A stretch of DNA of 64,000 nucleotides from Bathymodiolus brooksi methanotrophic gill symbiont (lineage in GTDB: Bacteria; Pseudomonadota; Gammaproteobacteria; Methylococcales; Methylomonadaceae): assembly GCA_020996635.1 (NCBI GenBank), contig JAJJBE010000091.1, positions 1 through 64,000 on the forward strand, in the 5' to 3' direction. The notes under the pieces were generated by a model. It was not told the DNA's origin. It saw nothing but the letters and a program-made list of their open reading frames with translations, and did not search any database. This document shows positions 4,102-14,864 of this stretch, piece by piece. The translations under genes and the position numbers were made by a program. Position 1 is the first letter of the stretch. Every line of letters starts with the position of its first letter.

Positions 4102-5250
4102 ATGCTTAATTCATTAGAAATCAAAAACTTTCGATCACTAGAATCTTTTCAGGTAAAAAAATTAGGTCAAGTCAACTTAATTGTTGGTAAAAACAACTCA
4201 GGGAAAAGCTCTGTGCTTGAAGCCTTACGGATTTATGCTGGTTCTGCCAATAGAGGTTTGCTAGAAAAGATTGCTCGGGGACATAATGAAAAATATCAAT
4301 TAAATGAAGATGATGAACAAAATGCATTTGATACAGCATTACCCTTTGAGGATTTATTTACAGGTAGACAGTTTCCTGAAAATGATGATGGTATTGTCAT
4401 TGGAGAAATTTCTGATTCAGAGAAAAACTTAAACATTAAGCACGGTTTTCTTATTGAGAAAGAAGAAACAACAACAGATGAACTCGGAGAGGAAACAACT
4501 AGAATTAGACGAACAACTATCAATAAATCGGAACTTTCTAATTTTGAATACTCTGCTAAGGATGTGTTGATAGTTAAAAAAGAGAAGCAATCGTTTATTA
4601 TTGATTTTGCGAGGTCAAGTATTCATTCCAGAAGATTTGTAGCAGAAATGGACATTATTCCGTGCAGTGTCATTCCAACTCAGTTTATTTCTATGGATGA
4701 GTTGGCTACTGAATGGGATGCAATTTCATTAACAGCTGGGGAAAACATTGTAAAAGAAGCATTACGTATTGTTTTACCAGAGTTTGAAGATTTAACTTTT
4801 GTTGATGACACATCCTATAAAATGCGTAGGGATTACCGCCGTCTTGCAAAAGTAAAAATATCTAACCTCCCGAGACCCGTACCTTTAAATAGTTTGGGTG
4901 ATGGTATGTTGCGAATTTTACAATTAGTACTAAAAGTTTTTTCTGCCAAGGGTGGTTTTTTACTAATTGATGAATTTGAGAATGGGTTGCACTATAGCGT
5001 ACAAGAGAAAGTGTGGGCATTATTATTTCAACTATCTAAAGAGTTAAATATACAAATTTTCGTAACAACACATAGCTGGGATTGTATTGAAAGTTTCTCA
5101 AAAATTGCTATTGAAAATAAAAACATTGAAGGCGTTTTATTTCGAGTTGGTAAAAGTATACGTGATAGCGAAAAGGGGCGTGTTATTGCAACTGTTTTTG
5201 ATGAAGAGCAACTTTATAGTATTACGCAATCTGATGTAGAGGTGCGTTAA
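4102..5250 (+). CDS. AAA15/21-type ATPase paired with a TOPRIM protein
   Basis: A 382-residue ATPase begins MLNSLEIKNFRSLESF with Walker A VGKNNSGKSS near residues 30-39, Walker B GGFLLIDEFENGLHY near 290, and FVTTHSWD carrying the switch histidine. Such RecF/OLD-like ATPases act as sensors in abortive-infection systems. AGGAATAGAA precedes the ATG. The stop TAA overlaps the next start by one base, indicating coupled synthesis with the TOPRIM protein. The pair resembles the two-gene form of OLD nucleases and the ATPase-TOPRIM organisation of PARIS or AbiL. It runs opposite to the cassette array and likely uses its own promoter. Confidence 0.85.
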   Translation: MLNSLEIKNFRSLESFQVKKLGQVNLIVGKNNSGKSSVLEALRIYAGSANRGLLEKIARGHNEKYQLNEDDEQNAFDTALPFEDLFTGRQFPENDDGIVIGEISDSEKNLNIKHGFLIEKEETTTDELGEETTRIRRTTINKSELSNFEYSAKDVLIVKKEKQSFIIDFARSSIHSRRFVAEMDIIPCSVIPTQFISMDELATEWDAISLTAGENIVKEALRIVLPEFEDLTFVDDTSYKMRRDYRRLAKVKISNLPRPVPLNSLGDGMLRILQLVLKVFSAKGGFLLIDEFENGLHYSVQEKVWALLFQLSKELNIQIFVTTHSWDCIESFSKIAIENKNIEGVLFRVGKSIRDSEKGRVIATVFDEEQLYSITQSDVEVR

Positions 5251-5909
5251 TGGCTAATTCACAGAAGATACTTTTAGTTGAGGGTGAGACTGATAAAAGT
5301 TTTTTTGAAGAAATTTGCAAGAAACTTTCCCTCAACACTATAGTCCGAGTTGCTCCTCCTAGAGATTTAGGCGGAACTCACAATACTAAAGGGGGAGTAT
5401 TAAATCATTTGAAAATTTTATTACCTCAGCTTGAAGATGGGCAATTGACGAACATAGCAGTAGTGGTTGATGCTGATTACATTGAACATGGGTCAGGTGG
5501 GCAAAAAACAGTTGAGCAGGTATCTAAAGTTCTCGAATCGTTTGGTTTTACATTAAAAAATAGTACTTCAAATTCAGAAGGGTTGTTGTTTAAACATTCT
5601 GATGGATTAAGAGACTTTGGCTTGTGGGTTATGCCCAATAATAATCGCGAAGGAATGCTAGAAGACTGGATAATAGAATCCATAAAAAACGATGAAAAAG
5701 CTCTTTTTCAGCAAGCTACCACAGCTGTTCAACAGTTATCTTCACCTAAATTTAAGCCCCATTTACAAGCAAAAGCTGAAGTAGCTACATGGTTAGCATG
5801 GCAAAAAACACCAGGACATGGACTTTATAGTGTAATGAAGGAAGGTTTGCTAGATGAAAATAGTGTGCCATATACACAGTTAGGTAACTGGCTGAAAAGT
5901 ATCTTTTGA
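5250..5909 (+). CDS. DUF3226-like TOPRIM protein, partner of the ATPase
   Basis: The 219-residue protein starts KILLVEGETDKSFFEEI, with the TOPRIM glutamate at residue 11, and has VVVDADY with aspartates 74 and 76, the second TOPRIM metal-binding motif. The following LWVMPNNNREGMLEDWI is typical of DUF3226/OLD-nuclease-like TOPRIM proteins. It is expected to be a metal-dependent nuclease-like effector controlled by the upstream ATPase. AGAGGTG precedes the ATG, which overlaps the upstream stop. attC D follows at 5948. Nuclease activity is inferred, not shown by sequence alone. Confidence 0.8.
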   Translation: MANSQKILLVEGETDKSFFEEICKKLSLNTIVRVAPPRDLGGTHNTKGGVLNHLKILLPQLEDGQLTNIAVVVDADYIEHGSGGQKTVEQVSKVLESFGFTLKNSTSNSEGLLFKHSDGLRDFGLWVMPNNNREGMLEDWIIESIKNDEKALFQQATTAVQQLSSPKFKPHLQAKAEVATWLAWQKTPGHGLYSVMKEGLLDENSVPYTQLGNWLKSIF

Positions 5910-6222: not shown

Positions 6223-7383
6223 ATGATCTTAGATTTTGGCGCATACAATTTTTACTCTTTCAAAGAAGGCGTAACAATTTCTTTTGAAAAAGGGAAAAAA
6301 AAGCAAAAAAATTATGAAATTTCAAAGCTTCTAGGTATCAAAGGGGCTAATGGCTCTGGAAAAACACATGTAGCAAAAATCCCCTGTTTTTTATCATTTT
6401 TTTGTTCAGAATCCTTTTCAATTTTAAAGCCAGAAGCTCCTATCCCATATCAACCTCATTTTTCTAAAAAAAATGAGCCTACAGAGCTATTCATTCGTTT
6501 TTTAACTTCAAAATATGAGTATGAGTATACTCTATCTGTTTTTAATGGAGTCGTAAATTCAGAGGTATTGAGAAGAAAAGATTTTACCTCTGAGCGACCT
6601 CGTTATATGAAAGTAGTTGAACGAAAATTTGATACTATCGAAAAATGCATTGCAGGGTTTGACTCTTTAAAAAATATATCTTTACGCTCAAATGCATCGT
6701 TTATTTGCACAGCTCGACAACATCAGTTTAATTTCGTAGATGATGTCTACGATGTATTTCGTAAAATTATAGGTAATGTCTCAGTTGGCGGTCATCAGCT
6801 AATTGAACGAAGCGAATTAAGCTTAAGCCAGATGACTCAACTTTATAATGACTCTTCTGATGAATTTAATTTTGCAAAAAATATTATTATTAATGCAGAT
6901 TTAGGAGTTGACGATATTACAATTGACTCATATCAGGATAGTAAAGGGGACACTAAATATACTCCTCTTTTTCACCTAAAATCTTCGGATGGAACCAAAG
7001 AAGTAATGCCTTTCTCAACTCAATCAAGTGGTACTCAAGCTTTATTTTACGAGCTTTACCGGTACCACACAGCTTTAAAGATAGGCGGGGTCTTAGTATT
7101 AGATGAATTTGATTTATATTTGCACCCTGAAATAACACCATTTTTGCTTGATTATTTTGAAAATGAAAATAAAAACACCTGTACTGCACAAATACTTTTC
7201 GTCACTCATAACGACAGGATTTTAGATTACTTAGGAAAATATAGATCCTATTTAGTTGCCAAAGACTTTAATGAAAGTTATGCATACAGGCTTGATGAGA
7301 TTCCTGGTGATTTATTACGTAATGACCGATCGATTCTTCCAGCATATAAAACTGGAAGAATCGGGGGGATCCCTAAATTATGA
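6223..7383 (+). CDS. COG1106/AAA15-type ATPase paired with a small toxin-like protein
   Basis: A 386-residue ABC-type ATPase. The N-terminus DFGAYNFYSFKEG is typical of the COG1106 (RloA/AbiL-like) group. Walker A GANGSGKT is at 41-48, an ABC-signature-like STQSSGTQ at 265-272, Walker B GVLVLDEFD at 289-297, and FVTHND with the switch histidine at 329. Between Walker A and the signature lies about 200 residues of family-specific insert. ATG of the next gene overlaps the TGA stop (ATGA). The usual COG1106 partner is an RloB-type TOPRIM protein, but here the partner is a different small protein. Confidence 0.85.
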   Translation: MILDFGAYNFYSFKEGVTISFEKGKKKQKNYEISKLLGIKGANGSGKTHVAKIPCFLSFFCSESFSILKPEAPIPYQPHFSKKNEPTELFIRFLTSKYEYEYTLSVFNGVVNSEVLRRKDFTSERPRYMKVVERKFDTIEKCIAGFDSLKNISLRSNASFICTARQHQFNFVDDVYDVFRKIIGNVSVGGHQLIERSELSLSQMTQLYNDSSDEFNFAKNIIINADLGVDDITIDSYQDSKGDTKYTPLFHLKSSDGTKEVMPFSTQSSGTQALFYELYRYHTALKIGGVLVLDEFDLYLHPEITPFLLDYFENENKNTCTAQILFVTHNDRILDYLGKYRSYLVAKDFNESYAYRLDEIPGDLLRNDRSILPAYKTGRIGGIPKL

Positions 7384-7886
7384 GAAAATTTACCCAAAAT
7401 AAAAGGAAGGCTAAATTTCTTGATAAAGCTCCACTGAGTAGTTTACAGTCTATCGATGTTGATTTAACAAAGCGATGTAAATTTAATTTTTCATATTATG
7501 CAGGCAATAATAAAAATTCAGGAGACACTTTTTCACAATGGGAAAGTACTAATAAGCTTTCATCATTAGCGAATAAAATCAAAGATTATAGTCGAGAGGA
7601 TCTTAAGCACTGGAAGCAACTGGGCGTTGGGAAAAACCGAAAGAGCATACTAGAAATTTATCCGAAATTTCCTAGTCATTCAAACTTTGAATGCCCTCAA
7701 AACATTCCTATCGATGTTGAATGGGGAAGGTTCAGGCTGGATCAAAATTGTCGATTAGCAGGTTTTGTTATTCCAGATTCTTTTAATAATCAGTTAGATG
7801 AAAAAACTGGATATTTTTTTGATAAAAATACATTTTATGTTGTTTTTCTTGATAGTAATCACGATTTTTATCCATTGAAAAAATAA
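7380..7886 (+). CDS. Small basic protein with a RelE-like C-terminal pattern
   Basis: This 168-residue protein begins with a lysine-rich tail. Its C-terminal half has WGRFRLDQNCRLAGFVI (115-131) and TFYVVFLDSNHDFYP (151-165). That run of strands ending D-x-N-H-x-x-Y-P resembles the C-terminal part of RelE/ParE-fold RNA-cleaving toxins and related small nuclease-like proteins. This is pattern similarity only; catalytic residues cannot be assigned with confidence. It overlaps the ATPase gene by four bases, so the two are made together, probably as sensor and effector. Confidence 0.6.
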   Translation: MRKFTQNKRKAKFLDKAPLSSLQSIDVDLTKRCKFNFSYYAGNNKNSGDTFSQWESTNKLSSLANKIKDYSREDLKHWKQLGVGKNRKSILEIYPKFPSHSNFECPQNIPIDVEWGRFRLDQNCRLAGFVIPDSFNNQLDEKTGYFFDKNTFYVVFLDSNHDFYPLKK

Positions 7887-8770: not shown

Positions 8771-8974
8771 GCATAACACCGCGGTGACTGGCGTGTTTGC
8801 CTTGGTAATGGAGTGCGAGCACGGACGATTACCAAGGCAAACATGCCAGTCGAACGCTTAGTTATTTAGGTTCTGGAGCCATGCGACAGATCCTTAATAA
8901 CTGAGCGTTCGACTGGGCACCAGTCACCGCGGTGTTATTGAGGAACTGGAGCGCAGCTCCAGTTCCTCAATAAC
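8771..8974 (-). mobile_element. 204-bp palindromic gene-less cassette or MITE, copy 1
   Basis: The ends are a perfect 17-base inverted repeat, AACACCGCGGTGACTGG at 8775-8791 and its complement at 8920-8936. Inside are two further hairpins: one with 24-base arms starting GACTGGCGTGTTTGCC, and one with arms GAACGCTTAGTTATT and AATAACTGAGCGTTC. A third perfect hairpin with 18-base arms and GCA loop (8935-8973) is attached on the right. Conservation between copies stops exactly at ATAAC on the left and AATAAC on the right, which are integron crossover boxes. It differs from copies 2 and 3 by one base (GAGCGTTC against GAGCTTTC). It contains no coding frame. Confidence 0.85.
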
Positions 8975-9734: not shown

Positions 9735-10274
9735 TTATTGCAATTTATTTCTTATAAACTCAATAAAAACAAGACTTTTTTTATGTAGGTTATAGACTTC
9801 CTCGGTAGTCTTATTATCTAAGTTATACGCTGCAAAATTACTATGAATCAAAATATTTCTTAGATGCCCTATTTCAATGAAGCATTTCATGGAGTCTTTT
9901 AGGGTATCATTTTTGTTAATTTCAGATTCCATGATTTTTTTAAATTCATCACCAAATAATGAAAAAAAAGAATTTGCATTTTTTCCAGGCTTTTCTGCAT
10001 TGTTTTTCTCACCCCAATTAAAATAAGTATGATATTGCATACCAATAGCCTTTTTCTTAAAAAAACTAATAACTTTTTCATTACCTCCAGATTCTTTAGC
10101 AATGAAATTAATAAGAATATTTTGAATTTGATCCTCAAAATAACTAGCAGAAGAAAGAACTATGATTTTTTTAAAATACTTATTAGTATCGCTTGAAAGA
10201 GATGGTTGCATACTCGTATCTAAAAAATTAACAATAGATAGGTATTCCTCATTTACTGAATCAACAACATCCAT
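9735..10274 (-). CDS. HEPN-domain protein (probable ribonuclease), DUF262 partner
   Basis: This 179-residue, largely helical protein carries RNILIH at 139-144, an R-x4-H motif that forms the catalytic site of HEPN ribonucleases. The region SSASYFEDQIQNILINFI (41-58) resembles the opening helix of the RiboL-PSP/MAE-type HEPN families. The ATG overlaps the TAA stop of the DUF262 gene (TAATG), so both come from one message with the DUF262 protein first. HEPN proteins are commonly toxin or abortive-infection RNases. Which of the pair restrains the other cannot be told. Confidence 0.75.
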   Translation of the reverse strand: MDVVDSVNEEYLSIVNFLDTSMQPSLSSDTNKYFKKIIVLSSASYFEDQIQNILINFIAKESGGNEKVISFFKKKAIGMQYHTYFNWGEKNNAEKPGKNANSFFSLFGDEFKKIMESEINKNDTLKDSMKCFIEIGHLRNILIHSNFAAYNLDNKTTEEVYNLHKKSLVFIEFIRNKLQ

Positions 10275-11452
10275 TATTCAAGAATTATTTTAGCGCGTGA
10301 TAAGCGAATCTGTACATTCAATTTACTTGCAGTATCAGATTGAGTGGCATTATAAAAGCCTTCGTCTTCTTTTAATAATCCAACTTTTTCAAGGGAAATA
10401 TCCTTTATTAAAAGATTTTTTTCTGAAAATGTTTGCTCACAAGCGGCAACAAAAATAGACTCATAAATTGATATGTTAAACCTACCTGTTTTGCTATGAA
10501 ATAACTTATCATTCGAATCTAATTGAGATACTTTAGACATAAATTCTATAAATAATTTCTCCAAATACTGTACGTTACTGCTTTCAAATGACTTTGCTTT
10601 AAGAGAAAATTTATTTAAAAACTTTGTCATCGATGGGTTATAGTTTTCTCCCTCAATGAGTAGTGCAAAACCCCTCAGTAACACCTCTACATCCTTCATA
10701 TTTATGTTAGGTATTGCTGATGAAGTGAATTTACGCCAAATATTATTCAAGTTTATTCGATATAGCATATCGTAAAATTCAGAATGAAATAAACTTGTTC
10801 TAATCTCTTGAGGTTTAAGATTCACGCCTCCAGAATTTAACCTGTTAAATATTTCAAAGACTACCGAGTGTTCATCATCTGGAGAGTTTTGCTTTATTAT
10901 GATGTTTCTAATTGTTCTTAAATCAAAAGAAAGTTTGTCGTCGTCATCAAGAGTAAAATAATTTAAGCCATTGAATTTATTAATCTGATTAGGCTGAGCA
11001 GTAGGTAATTTTAAATTAAAATCACTAAAATATTCATTATCATTAAGTATTTCATCTGGAACCCCTCCATGTTCATCAAAAATAACTCTTAGCTCCATTC
11101 TTTTTTCTTTTTTTGGAAATCGTTTTTTCATATAGTAATAAATGGTCATATATCGCTGCTGACCATCAATAACTAAAAACTTATTCTTAGCTTCTTCATA
11201 TAAAAATATTTGTGGAATTGGTATTCCTATAATTATTGATTCGATTAATTTTGATGCCCTTTTAATATCCCATACATAATTTCTTTGAAACCCTGGGATT
11301 TTGACAACTCCAGACCCGATAAAATCAAACAAAGTTTTTATGTTGAAATCGTTTGGGGATGCAGAAATATCATATTCAGTGAAACTAACATCCTCTGTTT
11401 CTCCGGCACCTTCCTCGGGATCAACCCAAATAATTTCTTGCTCAGTATTCAA
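10274..11452 (-). CDS. DUF262 (ParB-like nuclease fold) protein paired with HEPN
   Basis: A 392-residue protein with the DUF262 signatures VKIPGFQRNYVW (50-61) and VIDGQQRYMTIYY (94-106), and FEIFNRLNSGGVNLKPQEI further on. DUF262 has a ParB/Srx-like fold, is found in GmrSD and SspE, and is often a nucleotide-dependent sensor or nuclease. No C-terminal DUF1524 HNH domain is seen (the sequence ends LSRAKIILE), so nuclease activity may instead come from the HEPN partner. attC H lies immediately upstream of the pair at 11498, with a short leader between. Confidence 0.85.
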   Translation of the reverse strand: MNTEQEIIWVDPEEGAGETEDVSFTEYDISASPNDFNIKTLFDFIGSGVVKIPGFQRNYVWDIKRASKLIESIIIGIPIPQIFLYEEAKNKFLVIDGQQRYMTIYYYMKKRFPKKEKRMELRVIFDEHGGVPDEILNDNEYFSDFNLKLPTAQPNQINKFNGLNYFTLDDDDKLSFDLRTIRNIIIKQNSPDDEHSVVFEIFNRLNSGGVNLKPQEIRTSLFHSEFYDMLYRINLNNIWRKFTSSAIPNINMKDVEVLLRGFALLIEGENYNPSMTKFLNKFSLKAKSFESSNVQYLEKLFIEFMSKVSQLDSNDKLFHSKTGRFNISIYESIFVAACEQTFSEKNLLIKDISLEKVGLLKEDEGFYNATQSDTASKLNVQIRLSRAKIILE

Positions 11453-11599: not shown

Positions 11600-12319
11600 G
11601 CTTTTACGGCGTGACTTCACGACATAGTTACCAATGGCTATTAAAAATGATGCGACAATTGATGCAATAATACCCAAACCAAACCCAAACCAGCGTTCTT
11701 TGCTTATATTAGCTGATGCCCTTAATTCCTGCTCAGCAAATAATGCTGCGACTGTTTCTTTATCTGCTTTGACTAAAGGCTCAAGTTTTGATTTTTCACG
11801 TTCCAGTTGTTGAATTCGTTGTTCATTTAGTGCTGTTGTTTCTTTTTGAGATTGAACAAAAGTAAGTAATGTTTTGAGGCTATCTTCAGTAATATCCAAT
11901 TGCTCTAATTGCTCTTTAAAGCCAGAGCTTGCAGGTTGAATCAGACTTTTAGTATTCAGACTTTTAGTATTCATAATTTGATTAACTCCAAAGCTCGAAG
12001 CTACCCCAATTACTAGCGAAATAATTACAGTAATAAATGGAGACTTAAGGTATGAATGTATCCAAAGCCTTACAGCTGACTCAACTGCTGGACTTGTAAA
12101 CGAGGAGAATAAATTTTCAACCGTTAACAATTCACATTTAGGGCAAGAAACTTGAATGTTATCTTGGCTGGCTTGCCCTCCATTTTTTTCAGGAACAATG
12201 TATGAAAACATGGCAGTGTTATCATTGACATCACTTCCACATTTATAACATTTGTACTCAGCAGCTTCTAAAGCTCTATCTCTAAAATCCAAACTAACTC
12301 CATTTATACTAAGGCTCAT
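11594..12319 (-). CDS. Membrane protein with degenerate HNH-like zinc domain and coiled coil
   Basis: A 241-residue protein from ATG 12319. Residues about 17-62 read CYKCG, then YIVPEKNGGQASQDNIQVSC, then PKC: the spacing of an HNH/treble-clef zinc domain (C-x2-C, xIVP, GG, N, C-x2-C). The usual D-H before I-x-P is S-Y, so the catalytic histidine appears lost. Then come a hydrophobic segment (FITVIISLVIGVASSFGV), a glutamine/lysine-rich coiled coil, and a second segment (FGFGLGIIASIVASFLIAIG) near the end. The start codon sits in the boundary box of the 204-bp element, leaving no room for an outside RBS. The longer frame to 12367 would translate that element. No known family is recognised. 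Confidence 0.65.
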   Translation of the reverse strand: MSLSINGVSLDFRDRALEAAEYKCYKCGSDVNDNTAMFSYIVPEKNGGQASQDNIQVSCPKCELLTVENLFSSFTSPAVESAVRLWIHSYLKSPFITVIISLVIGVASSFGVNQIMNTKSLNTKSLIQPASSGFKEQLEQLDITEDSLKTLLTFVQSQKETTALNEQRIQQLEREKSKLEPLVKADKETVAALFAEQELRASANISKERWFGFGLGIIASIVASFLIAIGNYVVKSRRKSS

Positions 12320-12519
12320 AACACCGCGGTGACTGGCGTGTTTGCCTTGGTAATGGAGTGCGAGCACGGACGATTACCAAGGCAAACATGCCAGTCGAAC
12401 GCTTAGTTATTTAGGTTCTGGAGCCATGCGACAGATCCTTAATAACTGAGCTTTCGACTGGGCACCAGTCACCGCGGTGTTATTGAGGAACTGGAGCGCA
12501 GCTCCAGTTCCTCAATAAC
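12316..12519 (-). mobile_element. 204-bp palindromic gene-less cassette or MITE, copy 2
   Basis: This copy is identical by eye to copy 3 across all bases between the boundary boxes, including the 17-base terminal inverted repeats, two inner hairpins and the 18-base-arm hairpin on the right. It lies between attC I and the HNH-like gene, whose ATG overlaps its left boundary (TCATAAC on the plus strand). Confidence 0.85.
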
Positions 12520-12611
12520 GCCAAAATCAGCGCGCAGTTTAAAGGGGCGCGCTTTTTTGCTTCGCAAAAAACGTGACGCTTTAAACTGTCCGCTGGATTT
12601 TTTTGTTATAC
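12513..12611 (-). repeat. attC site I
   Basis: The site runs from CAATAAC to GTTATAC (99 bases). The left arm ATCAGCGCGCAGTTTAAA pairs with TTTAAACTGTCCGCTGGAT. The middle has a TTTTTTGCTTCGCAAAAAA hairpin. The TAA of the DUF4326 gene at 12623 is eleven bases to the right. Confidence 0.8.
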
Positions 12612-12622
12612 GATTTATACCG

Positions 12623-13240
12623 TTACTTTCCATCGTCTAATGAATTTAGATATTCAGCAATCACATCTCCGTGGCAAGCTAAAGGCTTACAGTGGCAACC
12701 TAATATCTTGCCTTTGAGTTTAAGCGCATCTTCTTTATTCTTTTTGAGATACCCTTTTTCAAAGTCATATTTGAATTTTCTTATTGCTTCATCTCTATCA
12801 TTTTGCTCTTCTCCTATGGATGCGCCAAACCCAACAGCATGTGGGTTCCCCCAGTCTGATCCTCGACCGATATAAACATCATAGTTCTCCCCTTTACCCT
12901 TATTAGCCACCCTAGTTAAACTTGTATCAATTATCCGTGTTTTAACCCCTTGAGTTTTTGCATTATCTATTAAATCGTTAAATGTCTCACCGTCATTAAA
13001 TATGATTGCATGACTGATTTTGTTCAAATGTTCTTCATCTATCGATGATGTAATTGCATCGCTCACCCTTTGGTCAGATGACAAATGCTTTTTAATGAAA
13101 TTATTGTCATCCACTAAATAGGCAATATAAAACTGACTGAAATTTGAAAGAATATTTGATAATTTTCTTTCAAATTTTCCATAGCATAAAAATGTTTTAG
13201 GGTAAGCGATTAATACGGTGGGGGTTTCTTGTATGTTCAT
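12623..13240 (-). CDS. DUF4326-containing protein
   Basis: This is a 205-residue protein. The C-terminal half has YDVYIGRGSDWGNPHA (about 120-135), DRDEAIRKFKYDFEKG and LGCHCKPLACHGDVIAEYL, the DUF4326 pattern with its conserved cysteine and histidine residues. The N-terminal 110 residues (IAYPKTFLCYGKFERKL onward) are a separate domain of unclear type, possibly nucleotide-binding. The ATG overlaps the TGA of the DUF488 gene by four bases. It is the last gene of a three-gene cassette. Confidence 0.8.
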   Translation of the reverse strand: MNIQETPTVLIAYPKTFLCYGKFERKLSNILSNFSQFYIAYLVDDNNFIKKHLSSDQRVSDAITSSIDEEHLNKISHAIIFNDGETFNDLIDNAKTQGVKTRIIDTSLTRVANKGKGENYDVYIGRGSDWGNPHAVGFGASIGEEQNDRDEAIRKFKYDFEKGYLKKNKEDALKLKGKILGCHCKPLACHGDVIAEYLNSLDDGK

Positions 13241-13677
13241 GTTAAATGTACCACCTCAATATCTGTATTCCAACGGTCATTCAAATATTCTACTACAAGT
13301 CTTCTATGACAATAATGAGGCTTATGTTCACTACATAACAGACAACCATTATCTAACATTGACTTGTCAACTGAGCGCTCAATGTTTCTTTTGGCAATCA
13401 GGTTTAAGAACTTATCTTCATAATCTTCCCATGTGATTATTTTCTTTTTATAATCACTTAGAATATCTTTTGTTGGTGCTAATTCTTCAAGGTGAATATA
13501 ATCTGCATCACACAACTCAGATAGGAAGAACTTCAAATCATCTCGCTTAGCAAAACCAGCAAGCTGAGACACATTATTCACTCTAACATCGATAATTCTT
13601 GATATATTATTATCTTTAATGAGTGTAAAAAATTTATTTGCTCCTTTCTGAGTGAATCCAATAGTAAATGTCTTCAT
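13237..13677 (-). CDS. DUF488-family protein
   Basis: A 146-residue protein starting MKTFTIGFTQKGANKFF with the DUF488 features IIDVRVNNVSQLAGFAK and CLLCSEHKPHYCHRRLVVE near the C-terminus. Longer frames extend to 13761 but overlap the upstream gene; ATG 13677 has AAGGA seven bases before it and matches the family start. DUF488 proteins are small, conserved cysteine/histidine proteins, biochemically little understood and often in defence neighbourhoods. The gene is coupled to DUF4326 by a four-base overlap. Confidence 0.85.
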   Translation of the reverse strand: MKTFTIGFTQKGANKFFTLIKDNNISRIIDVRVNNVSQLAGFAKRDDLKFFLSELCDADYIHLEELAPTKDILSDYKKKIITWEDYEDKFLNLIAKRNIERSVDKSMLDNGCLLCSEHKPHYCHRRLVVEYLNDRWNTDIEVVHLT

Positions 13678-13690
13678 AACTTTTTCCTTT

Positions 13691-14314
13691 TTATAAGATT
13701 GTAGCAACAATCTTATAGCATGAATAATTATTGCCACCTGCTGGGTCGTATTTTTCCCCAAGACTAATGCAAAGAATCTGTTGATTATCTGGTTCTACTA
13801 GATGTTTTTCAAAATTCGGATCCGTCACAGGCAGATCATAATTTATACCAGCATAAATGAAGGTGGCGCGCCTTCTACCATCACTTTTACTGAGATGTAA
13901 ATCACTCGCTTGAATGAGATAAAGTGATTGACCTATGTCAATAGCTCTGCTTTCAATCTGAGCGTAACTCACTCTATTTCCTGCCCCCCAAAGACTCTCA
14001 GGTGTATCCAGGTAATTTGAAACCTCATTTTCTTCAATTCTATATCTTTGCTGCCAGACTTGATCAGATATGAGGTGGTTTTCTGGTTGGCTTATTAGTG
14101 GTGCAGATCGAGAGAGATTCATTTCAATTTTTTGAAGAGGCTTTACCTTGAATTTCCCGTGAGGATTTTCATAAAGGCATTGTTGATCTGATAGTTCTGC
14201 ACCTTCCATGTCAGAAACGGGTCTAATCCATTGGTGAGAATTCACCACCTTGCCAGCAACACAATGTCTTCCGTGTTTTACTGAGTTCGCAAATATTACG
14301 ATTGTTGTGTTCAT
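13691..14314 (-). CDS. Dual OB-fold domain protein
   Basis: This 207-residue protein starts MNTTIVIFANSVKHGRHCVAG, then KVVNSHQWIRPVSDMEGAEL, the N-terminal look of proteins annotated as dual OB domain-containing. LVEPDNQQILCISLGE and GGNNYSCYKIVATIL come near the end. ATG 14314 follows AAGGAG with six bases between, so the frame to 14338 is not used. Its stop is 13 bases before DUF488. With DUF488 and DUF4326 it forms one cassette. OB folds bind nucleic acids or nucleotides, so it may recruit the other two to a target; that is inference. Confidence 0.7.
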   Translation of the reverse strand: MNTTIVIFANSVKHGRHCVAGKVVNSHQWIRPVSDMEGAELSDQQCLYENPHGKFKVKPLQKIEMNLSRSAPLISQPENHLISDQVWQQRYRIEENEVSNYLDTPESLWGAGNRVSYAQIESRAIDIGQSLYLIQASDLHLSKSDGRRRATFIYAGINYDLPVTDPNFEKHLVEPDNQQILCISLGEKYDPAGGNNYSCYKIVATIL

Positions 14315-14329
14315 GCCACTCCTTTTTTC

Positions 14330-14533
14330 GTATAACACCGCGGTGACTGGCGTGTTTGCCTTGGTAATGGAGTGCGAGCACGGACGATTACCAAGGCAAA
14401 CATGCCAGTCGAACGCTTAGTTATTTAGGTTCTGGAGCCATGCGACAGATCCTTAATAACTGAGCTTTCGACTGGGCACCAGTCACCGCGGTGTTATTGA
14501 GGAACTGGAGCGCAGCTCCAGTTCCTCAATAAC
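14330..14533 (-). mobile_element. 204-bp palindromic gene-less cassette or MITE, copy 3
   Basis: This copy has the same sequence as copy 2, from GTATAAC on the left to CAATAAC on the right. Unlike the others it is not followed by an attC on its right; after 14533 comes TATTACTTCTAAAGTAAC, which shares nothing with the attC sites. It is thus the first unit of the array when read leftward, the place where attI would be expected. Confidence 0.85.
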
Positions 14534-14717
14534 TATTACTTCTAAAGTAACTTCGCCCTACCCACTCAATATAAACGAACTATTCCTTCCTATTTAAATT
14601 AATAGCTCAAATTAGCTCTATTTTTATAATAGGAAGGCATATAACCATCATAATTAGGTATTAGCGGGTAAATCAGGAAAAATTGCTTCACTATTTATAG
14701 CTGATCTTACCTAGTAG
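14534..14717. other. Gap between array edge and RayT remnant
   Basis: There is no coding frame. An inverted pair CCTTCCTATT (near 14587) and AATAGGAAGG (near 14628) encloses about 30 bases and could form a hairpin. No attI signature or integrase gene was recognised. Confidence 0.5.
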
Positions 14718-14864
14718 CTAATTTTATGTCAAGCTCAGGTAACTGCAAATAAAGGCATGGTGATAGGAAATAAGCATTTTAAAGATGTGCTTGAAAAGCT
14801 AACGGGTAGAAAACAAAAAAACCATCAAAGTAGAAAGGCGCATAGGTTGGAGAAAAATAAATAG
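14718..14864 (+). pseudogene. RayT/REP-associated tyrosine transposase, C-terminal remnant
   Basis: A plus-strand frame of 48 codons, entered after two in-frame stops and ending at TAG 14862-14864, reads NKGMVIGNKHFKDVLEKLTG then RKQKNHQSRKAHRLEKNK. The pattern NKG-x3-GN-x2-F-K-x3-E-x-LTGR with a basic tail is how RayT (COG1943, IS200-like Y1 transposase) proteins end. The catalytic N-terminal domain is missing, so the gene is dead. RayT proteins mobilise REP palindromes, which invites comparison with the palindromic elements in the array, but no direct link is shown. About 140 non-coding bases follow, up to the terminator at 15009. Confidence 0.65.

Follow-up and report, generated by a model that had tools for sequence, protein, structure and literature searches.

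We asked whether three small genes packed into one integron cassette of the Bathymodiolus brooksi methanotrophic gill symbiont form a functional unit, and what such a unit might do. The window (the whole stretch of DNA that was analysed, 64,000 nucleotides) carries them on the minus strand from 14314 to 12623. The tight coupling claimed in a preliminary description was borne out: the first two genes are 13 bases apart (13690-13678) and the second and third share an ATGA (13240-13237). The first gene (13691-14314, minus strand) encodes a dual OB-fold (DuOB) protein of 207 aa (PF22557, E 1.2e-46; PADLOC model PDC-M45A, E 1.5e-39), and the second (13237-13677, minus strand) a DUF488 protein of the PDC-M45C type with 146 aa (PF04343, E 3.5e-21; PDC-M45C, E 3.7e-68). 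The third gene (12623-13240, minus strand) encodes a 205-aa fusion that matches two Pfam families. Its mSLOG (minimal SLOG) domain, a predicted nucleotide-binding Rossmannoid at residues 7-111 (12908-13222, minus strand; PF22565, E 3.5e-34), had been overlooked in the preliminary description and is followed by a DUF4326 domain at residues 114-196 (12653-12901, minus strand; PF14216, E 6.7e-19). The Pfam scores for DuOB, DUF488 and DUF4326 were all far past the cut-off; an NCBIfam search with the trio proteins returned nothing useful.

The trio as an integron cassette

The proposal that the three genes are carried as one mobile cassette also held, as the operon stops ~12 bases short of an attC-like hairpin and starts directly after another core site, with attI and an integrase stub upstream. 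The attC site that closes the cassette (12516-12611, minus strand) ends in GTTAT.../...ATAAC; its hairpin has a z of -5.6 on the plus strand, and 0 of 200 shuffles folded equally well. A close relative from a sponge symbiont (locus L013) has a similar attC 3' of the trio. On its other side the trio is separated from attI and the integrase stub only by a gene-less cassette of ~200 bases (14332-14533, minus strand; hairpin at 14493-14533), so that, counted from attI, the trio is the first cassette that codes for proteins. The attI region (14534-14725) aligns with that of an intact integron integrase (TIGR02249, E 4e-131) on contig C100 of the same genome, and window positions 14332-14742 are 92% identical over 412 bases to the attI and integrase start there. 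Comparison with the C100 locus identifies the window integrase as a stub (14726-14752, plus strand) consisting of a start codon, a few codons and a stop, the remainder being deleted. Thus attC, the core sites at both cassette ends and attI are present, and beside this attI stands the stub with no functional integrase. A possible Pc promoter reading into the cassettes (TTGACA-17-TAAGAT, 14704-14732, minus strand) has 10/12 matches, such sites occurring at a near-chance number in the region.

The gene-less cassette is itself repeated. Copies with 98-100% identity occur on contigs C14, C100, C62 and C247. Eight copies in the genome are near-full; spread over different contigs, they are found at attI and also at a number of attC sites, and within the window they lie at 14332-14533, 12318-12516 and 8773-8971. 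The cassette contains a 19-pair hairpin; an element that targets attC and a repeated promoter/terminator cassette are two possible readings of it.

The other cassettes of the array in the window are rich in defence-type genes, with matches to PDC-M38AB, AbiLi-like, AriA-like and GmrSD-N/HEPN models. Two two-gene units are on the plus strand, against the direction of the other cassettes: AAA_15 with DUF3226 at 4102-5909 (PDC-M38AB) and AAA_21 with an unknown protein at 6223-7886 (AbiLi-like). At 9735-11452, a GmrSD N-terminal (DUF262) protein, which matches the NsnA and PD-T4-2 models, overlaps its HEPN RiboL-PSP partner by one base. Between the integrase stub and tRNA-Pro, a short remnant (14750-14860) looks by eye like the C-terminus of a REP-associated tyrosine transposase, and the window genes sampled beyond tRNA-Pro were of the housekeeping kind (the pheT/pheS region, thrS, ribosomal protein L2, rpoA, rpoB and rpoC).

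Cys/His motifs and predicted folds

The preliminary description had pointed to Cys/His clusters near the C-termini of two of the proteins (HYCHRR and CHCKPLACHG), and in aligned relatives both proved to be conserved. The DUF488C motif GCLLCSE..PH.CHRR was nearly or fully invariant (its CLLCSE..PH.CHRR part invariant, with residues C112, C115, E117, C123, H124 and R125), and the DUF4326 motif GC.CKP..CHGD, whose C182, C184, C189, H190 and D192 lie in a strand-loop-helix, was invariant; given this invariance, the motifs are not chance occurrences. The likeness between the two had been overlooked. When the family profiles were compared, DUF488C and DUF4326 aligned weakly and over the motif only (probability 36%), and DUF4326 gave no signal with DUF488B. 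Because our own comparison is weak, we take the placement of DUF488 and DUF4326 in a common clade from the literature, where DUF4326 is assigned to the rhodanese-phosphatase superfamily (PMC9503650).

AlphaFold models were built from shallow alignments (14-17 sequences). The DuOB model (AF2 pLDDT 91.8) is nearly all-beta, and the mSLOG-DUF4326 model (pLDDT 85.7) has in its DUF4326 part a strand (179-182), the Cys loop and a helix (190-200). A reading of the Cys/His clusters as zinc fingers was set aside, since the models place the motifs in the strand-loop-helix of what appears to be an enzyme-type fold. A PDB sequence search with each of the three proteins found no solved structure. In Foldseek searches of the PDB the DuOB model came closest to DNA sensors of the HIN-200 type, which have tandem OB folds (E 2.4e-4, probability 1.0, TM 0.34), and then to telomerase Teb1 and LEF-3, i.e. 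tandem-OB nucleic-acid binders generally; in a viral structure library only weak LEF-3-type ssDNA-binding matches were seen. DuOB may share two tandem OB folds with AIM2, IFI16 and p202, but at 7-11% identity and a low TM-score of about 0.34 there is no sign of common descent. For the mSLOG-DUF4326 model, low-molecular-weight phosphatases came first, at a non-significant E of 0.013. Nucleic-acid recognition plus a chemical step, as had been suggested for the trio, fits this domain content, namely the tandem-OB matches of DuOB and the invariant Cys/His motifs.

Recurrence of the trio and its sister form

To follow the trio elsewhere, profiles from the window proteins and their matches were run over 106 loci. 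DuOB, DUF488 and mSLOG-DUF4326 recurred, with order and strand kept, at about 20 further loci, so that homologous trios do exist outside this array and the view of the genes as a joint unit gained support. Symbiont genomes and MAGs account for L013-L018 and L008, and plasmids from Citrobacter, Klebsiella, Salmonella, Acinetobacter and Moraxella for L029-L032, L080-L082 and L085; at L091-L095 the trio is cargo of prophages (read as P2-like from adjoining terminase-type genes). The trio makes up most of the coding content of plasmid pB16KP0202-4 and of its twin, both of 4,167 bases. These two copies are uninterrupted; on pA172, an 8.2-kb Salmonella plasmid (L030), an ISEcp1-blaCMY-31 (CMY-31) insertion splits the DuOB gene. 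DuOB is also broken at L083, a chromosome-sized record labelled as an Aeromonas plasmid, and decayed copies of the trio occur at L084 and L011. Occurrence is patchy: of the 229 genomes sampled from the class 11 have DuOB, and of the 399 sampled from the phylum 6 have it. mSLOG exceeded the cut-off in five of the 229 class genomes, and all five also carry DuOB (hypergeometric p 9e-8; 2e-6 once the genome of the window is removed). A DNA search of complete E. coli genomes with the DUF4326 gene of the plasmid copy gave no match.

A second form of the operon, DuOB-DUF488B-DUF488C, was found at 12 loci. It corresponds to the PADLOC candidate PDC-M45, in which A is DuOB, B a long-type DUF488 and C a short-type DUF488. 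The first two window genes match the PDC-M45A and PDC-M45C models and are adjacent, and the DUF488C proteins of both forms fall in one tree. The window operon lacks PDC-M45B, whose place is taken by the mSLOG-DUF4326 fusion, and its order is A-C-mSLOG/DUF4326 rather than A-B-C. The best match to the PDC-M45B model in the cassette (1.9e-12) was the C-type gene, with no B-type gene there. In the absence of B, the window operon is a variant of PDC-M45 and not a complete one. The mSLOG-DUF4326 protein had no model match in PADLOC-DB 2.0, and none of the loci profiled held both DUF488B and mSLOG-DUF4326. Judged from the sequences, the system consists of a core of DuOB and DUF488C with a swappable partner, either DUF488B or mSLOG-DUF4326. 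One supported clade (95/93) of the DUF488C tree holds the second form together with L090, where a permuted DUF4326-type gene accompanies DuOB and DUF488C with no B gene in between. This suggests, but does not prove, a second and independent partner swap, because the N-terminal half of the L090 protein has only a marginal mSLOG score (E 0.05) and the locus lies at a contig end.

In the literature searched, we found neither the name PDC-M45 nor experimental work on the system. The clade and its role in nucleic-acid-modifying conflict systems were reportedly predicted computationally by Burroughs and Aravind in 2023, with both enzyme families of the operon covered, and the Pfam names DuOB, mSLOG and DUF488-N3a presumably stem from that work. 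The general prediction, which the preliminary description did not mention, is already in print and PADLOC already contains PDC-M45; the trio is the form that the PADLOC models cover only in part.

A probable role in defence

Finally, we asked what the operon does. The immune role raised in the preliminary description is supported by gene context and by the PADLOC candidate PDC-M45. At L112, one copy of the second form is set into a BREX operon, flanked by pglX and pglZ (each with a PADLOC E of 0) and with BrxL following; others adjoin a CBASS cyclase and a HORMA gene (L033), stand among type III CRISPR genes, namely Csx16/Cas1 and Csm6 (L034), or adjoin PDC-S21 and a PD-Lambda-2B-like gene (L109). 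To this the window adds the defence-type cassettes of its array. The recurrence of the same trio in the same order on plasmids, in prophages and in other genomes indicates a real and probably antiviral system. We therefore consider it probable, though far from certain, that the trio is a mobile operon directed against phages or other invaders, the mSLOG-DUF4326 form of PDC-M45.

The domains suggest how such an operon might work. In the order of events that we infer, the two OB folds of DuOB would bind foreign nucleic acid, either a DNA end or a single strand, and DUF488 and DUF4326, as small Rossmannoid enzymes with Cys/His loops, would then catalyse the transfer of phosphate or ribose. Their substrate could be the bound nucleic acid or a nucleotide of the NAD+/ADP-ribose type, and mSLOG may bind a nucleotide and so gate or supply DUF4326. 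Within a defence role, nucleic-acid ends and NAD/ADPr nucleotides appear about equally likely as the substrate. In a bolder version, which we regard as a long shot, DuOB would be a bacterial equivalent of the cytosolic DNA sensors with HIN-type tandem OB folds: once bound to invading DNA, it would direct an exchangeable pair of enzymes with Cys loops (DUF488C with either DUF488B or a nucleotide-gated mSLOG-DUF4326) to modify the DNA ends chemically or to cap them, a mode of immunity undescribed so far.

The same genes could instead protect their carrier from other immune systems, removing or mending the damage or the ADP-ribose-type signals that these produce and so shielding a plasmid, prophage or cassette. 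Mobile elements do often carry the trio, among them prophages and a plasmid of 4,167 bases that has hardly any other gene, and for free-standing DUF4326 a breakdown of ADPr signals has been predicted (PMC9503650). The predicted targets of DUF4326, which has been placed in the rhodanese-phosphatase superfamily, are ribose-linked phosphates in ADPr derivatives, and in viruses the domain is read as a counter-defence processor of ADPr-type signals (PMC9503650, PMC7824862). In phages and giant viruses it is fused to SLOG, Macro or NADAR; such proteins share with the trio the pairing of DUF4326 with a SLOG-class nucleotide-binding domain, but they are viral, are described without DuOB or DUF488 and are read as counter-defence (PMC9503650, PMC7824862). 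The window fusion protein matched 1,609 phage records, none of which covers 80% of it and which mostly concern the DUF4326 part. As DUF4326 is common in phages and is thought to counter defence there, it is not by itself a defence marker. The DuOB and DUF488 proteins of the window, however, matched none of 50,697 phage records, and a reading of these two as phage genes was rejected. This pattern fits viral DUF4326 as a processor of ADPr signals and the trio as a unit of cells and mobile elements. Moreover, the sister form sits inside BREX and beside CBASS and CRISPR genes, the typical placement of defence cargo, and the trio is found on symbiont chromosomes as well, so that shielding of the carrier seems unlikely, although it is the strongest of the alternatives.

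Still less probable is a stress or nucleic-acid end-repair operon that has no part in conflict and was spread by horizontal transfer. Three trio loci (L014, L015 and L016) have housekeeping neighbours and no other defence gene, and rhodanese-phosphatase-type enzymes are able to process the ends of nucleotides; but the patchy occurrence of DuOB, the carriage on mobile elements, the decay in relatives and the defence neighbours speak against such a role. That the genes are mere passengers, brought together by integron bundling with no selected joint function, would agree with the position of the window copy in an array. This view was rejected and is highly improbable, because trios with conserved order and strand are also found independently of integrons, in chromosomes and prophages as well as on plasmids, and because every mSLOG genome of the class sample is also a DuOB genome.

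With a defence role as the preferred reading, three genes for domains of unknown function become one testable and portable unit of <1.8 kb, intact on a 4.2-kb enterobacterial plasmid. If the trio protects against phages, it would do so by Cys-loop phosphate or ribose transfer guided by a tandem-OB binder, and we know of no such chemistry with such a guide among characterised defences. As its mSLOG-DUF4326 partner has no model in PADLOC-DB 2.0, a protective trio would also widen PDC-M45 to include loci overlooked by current tools.
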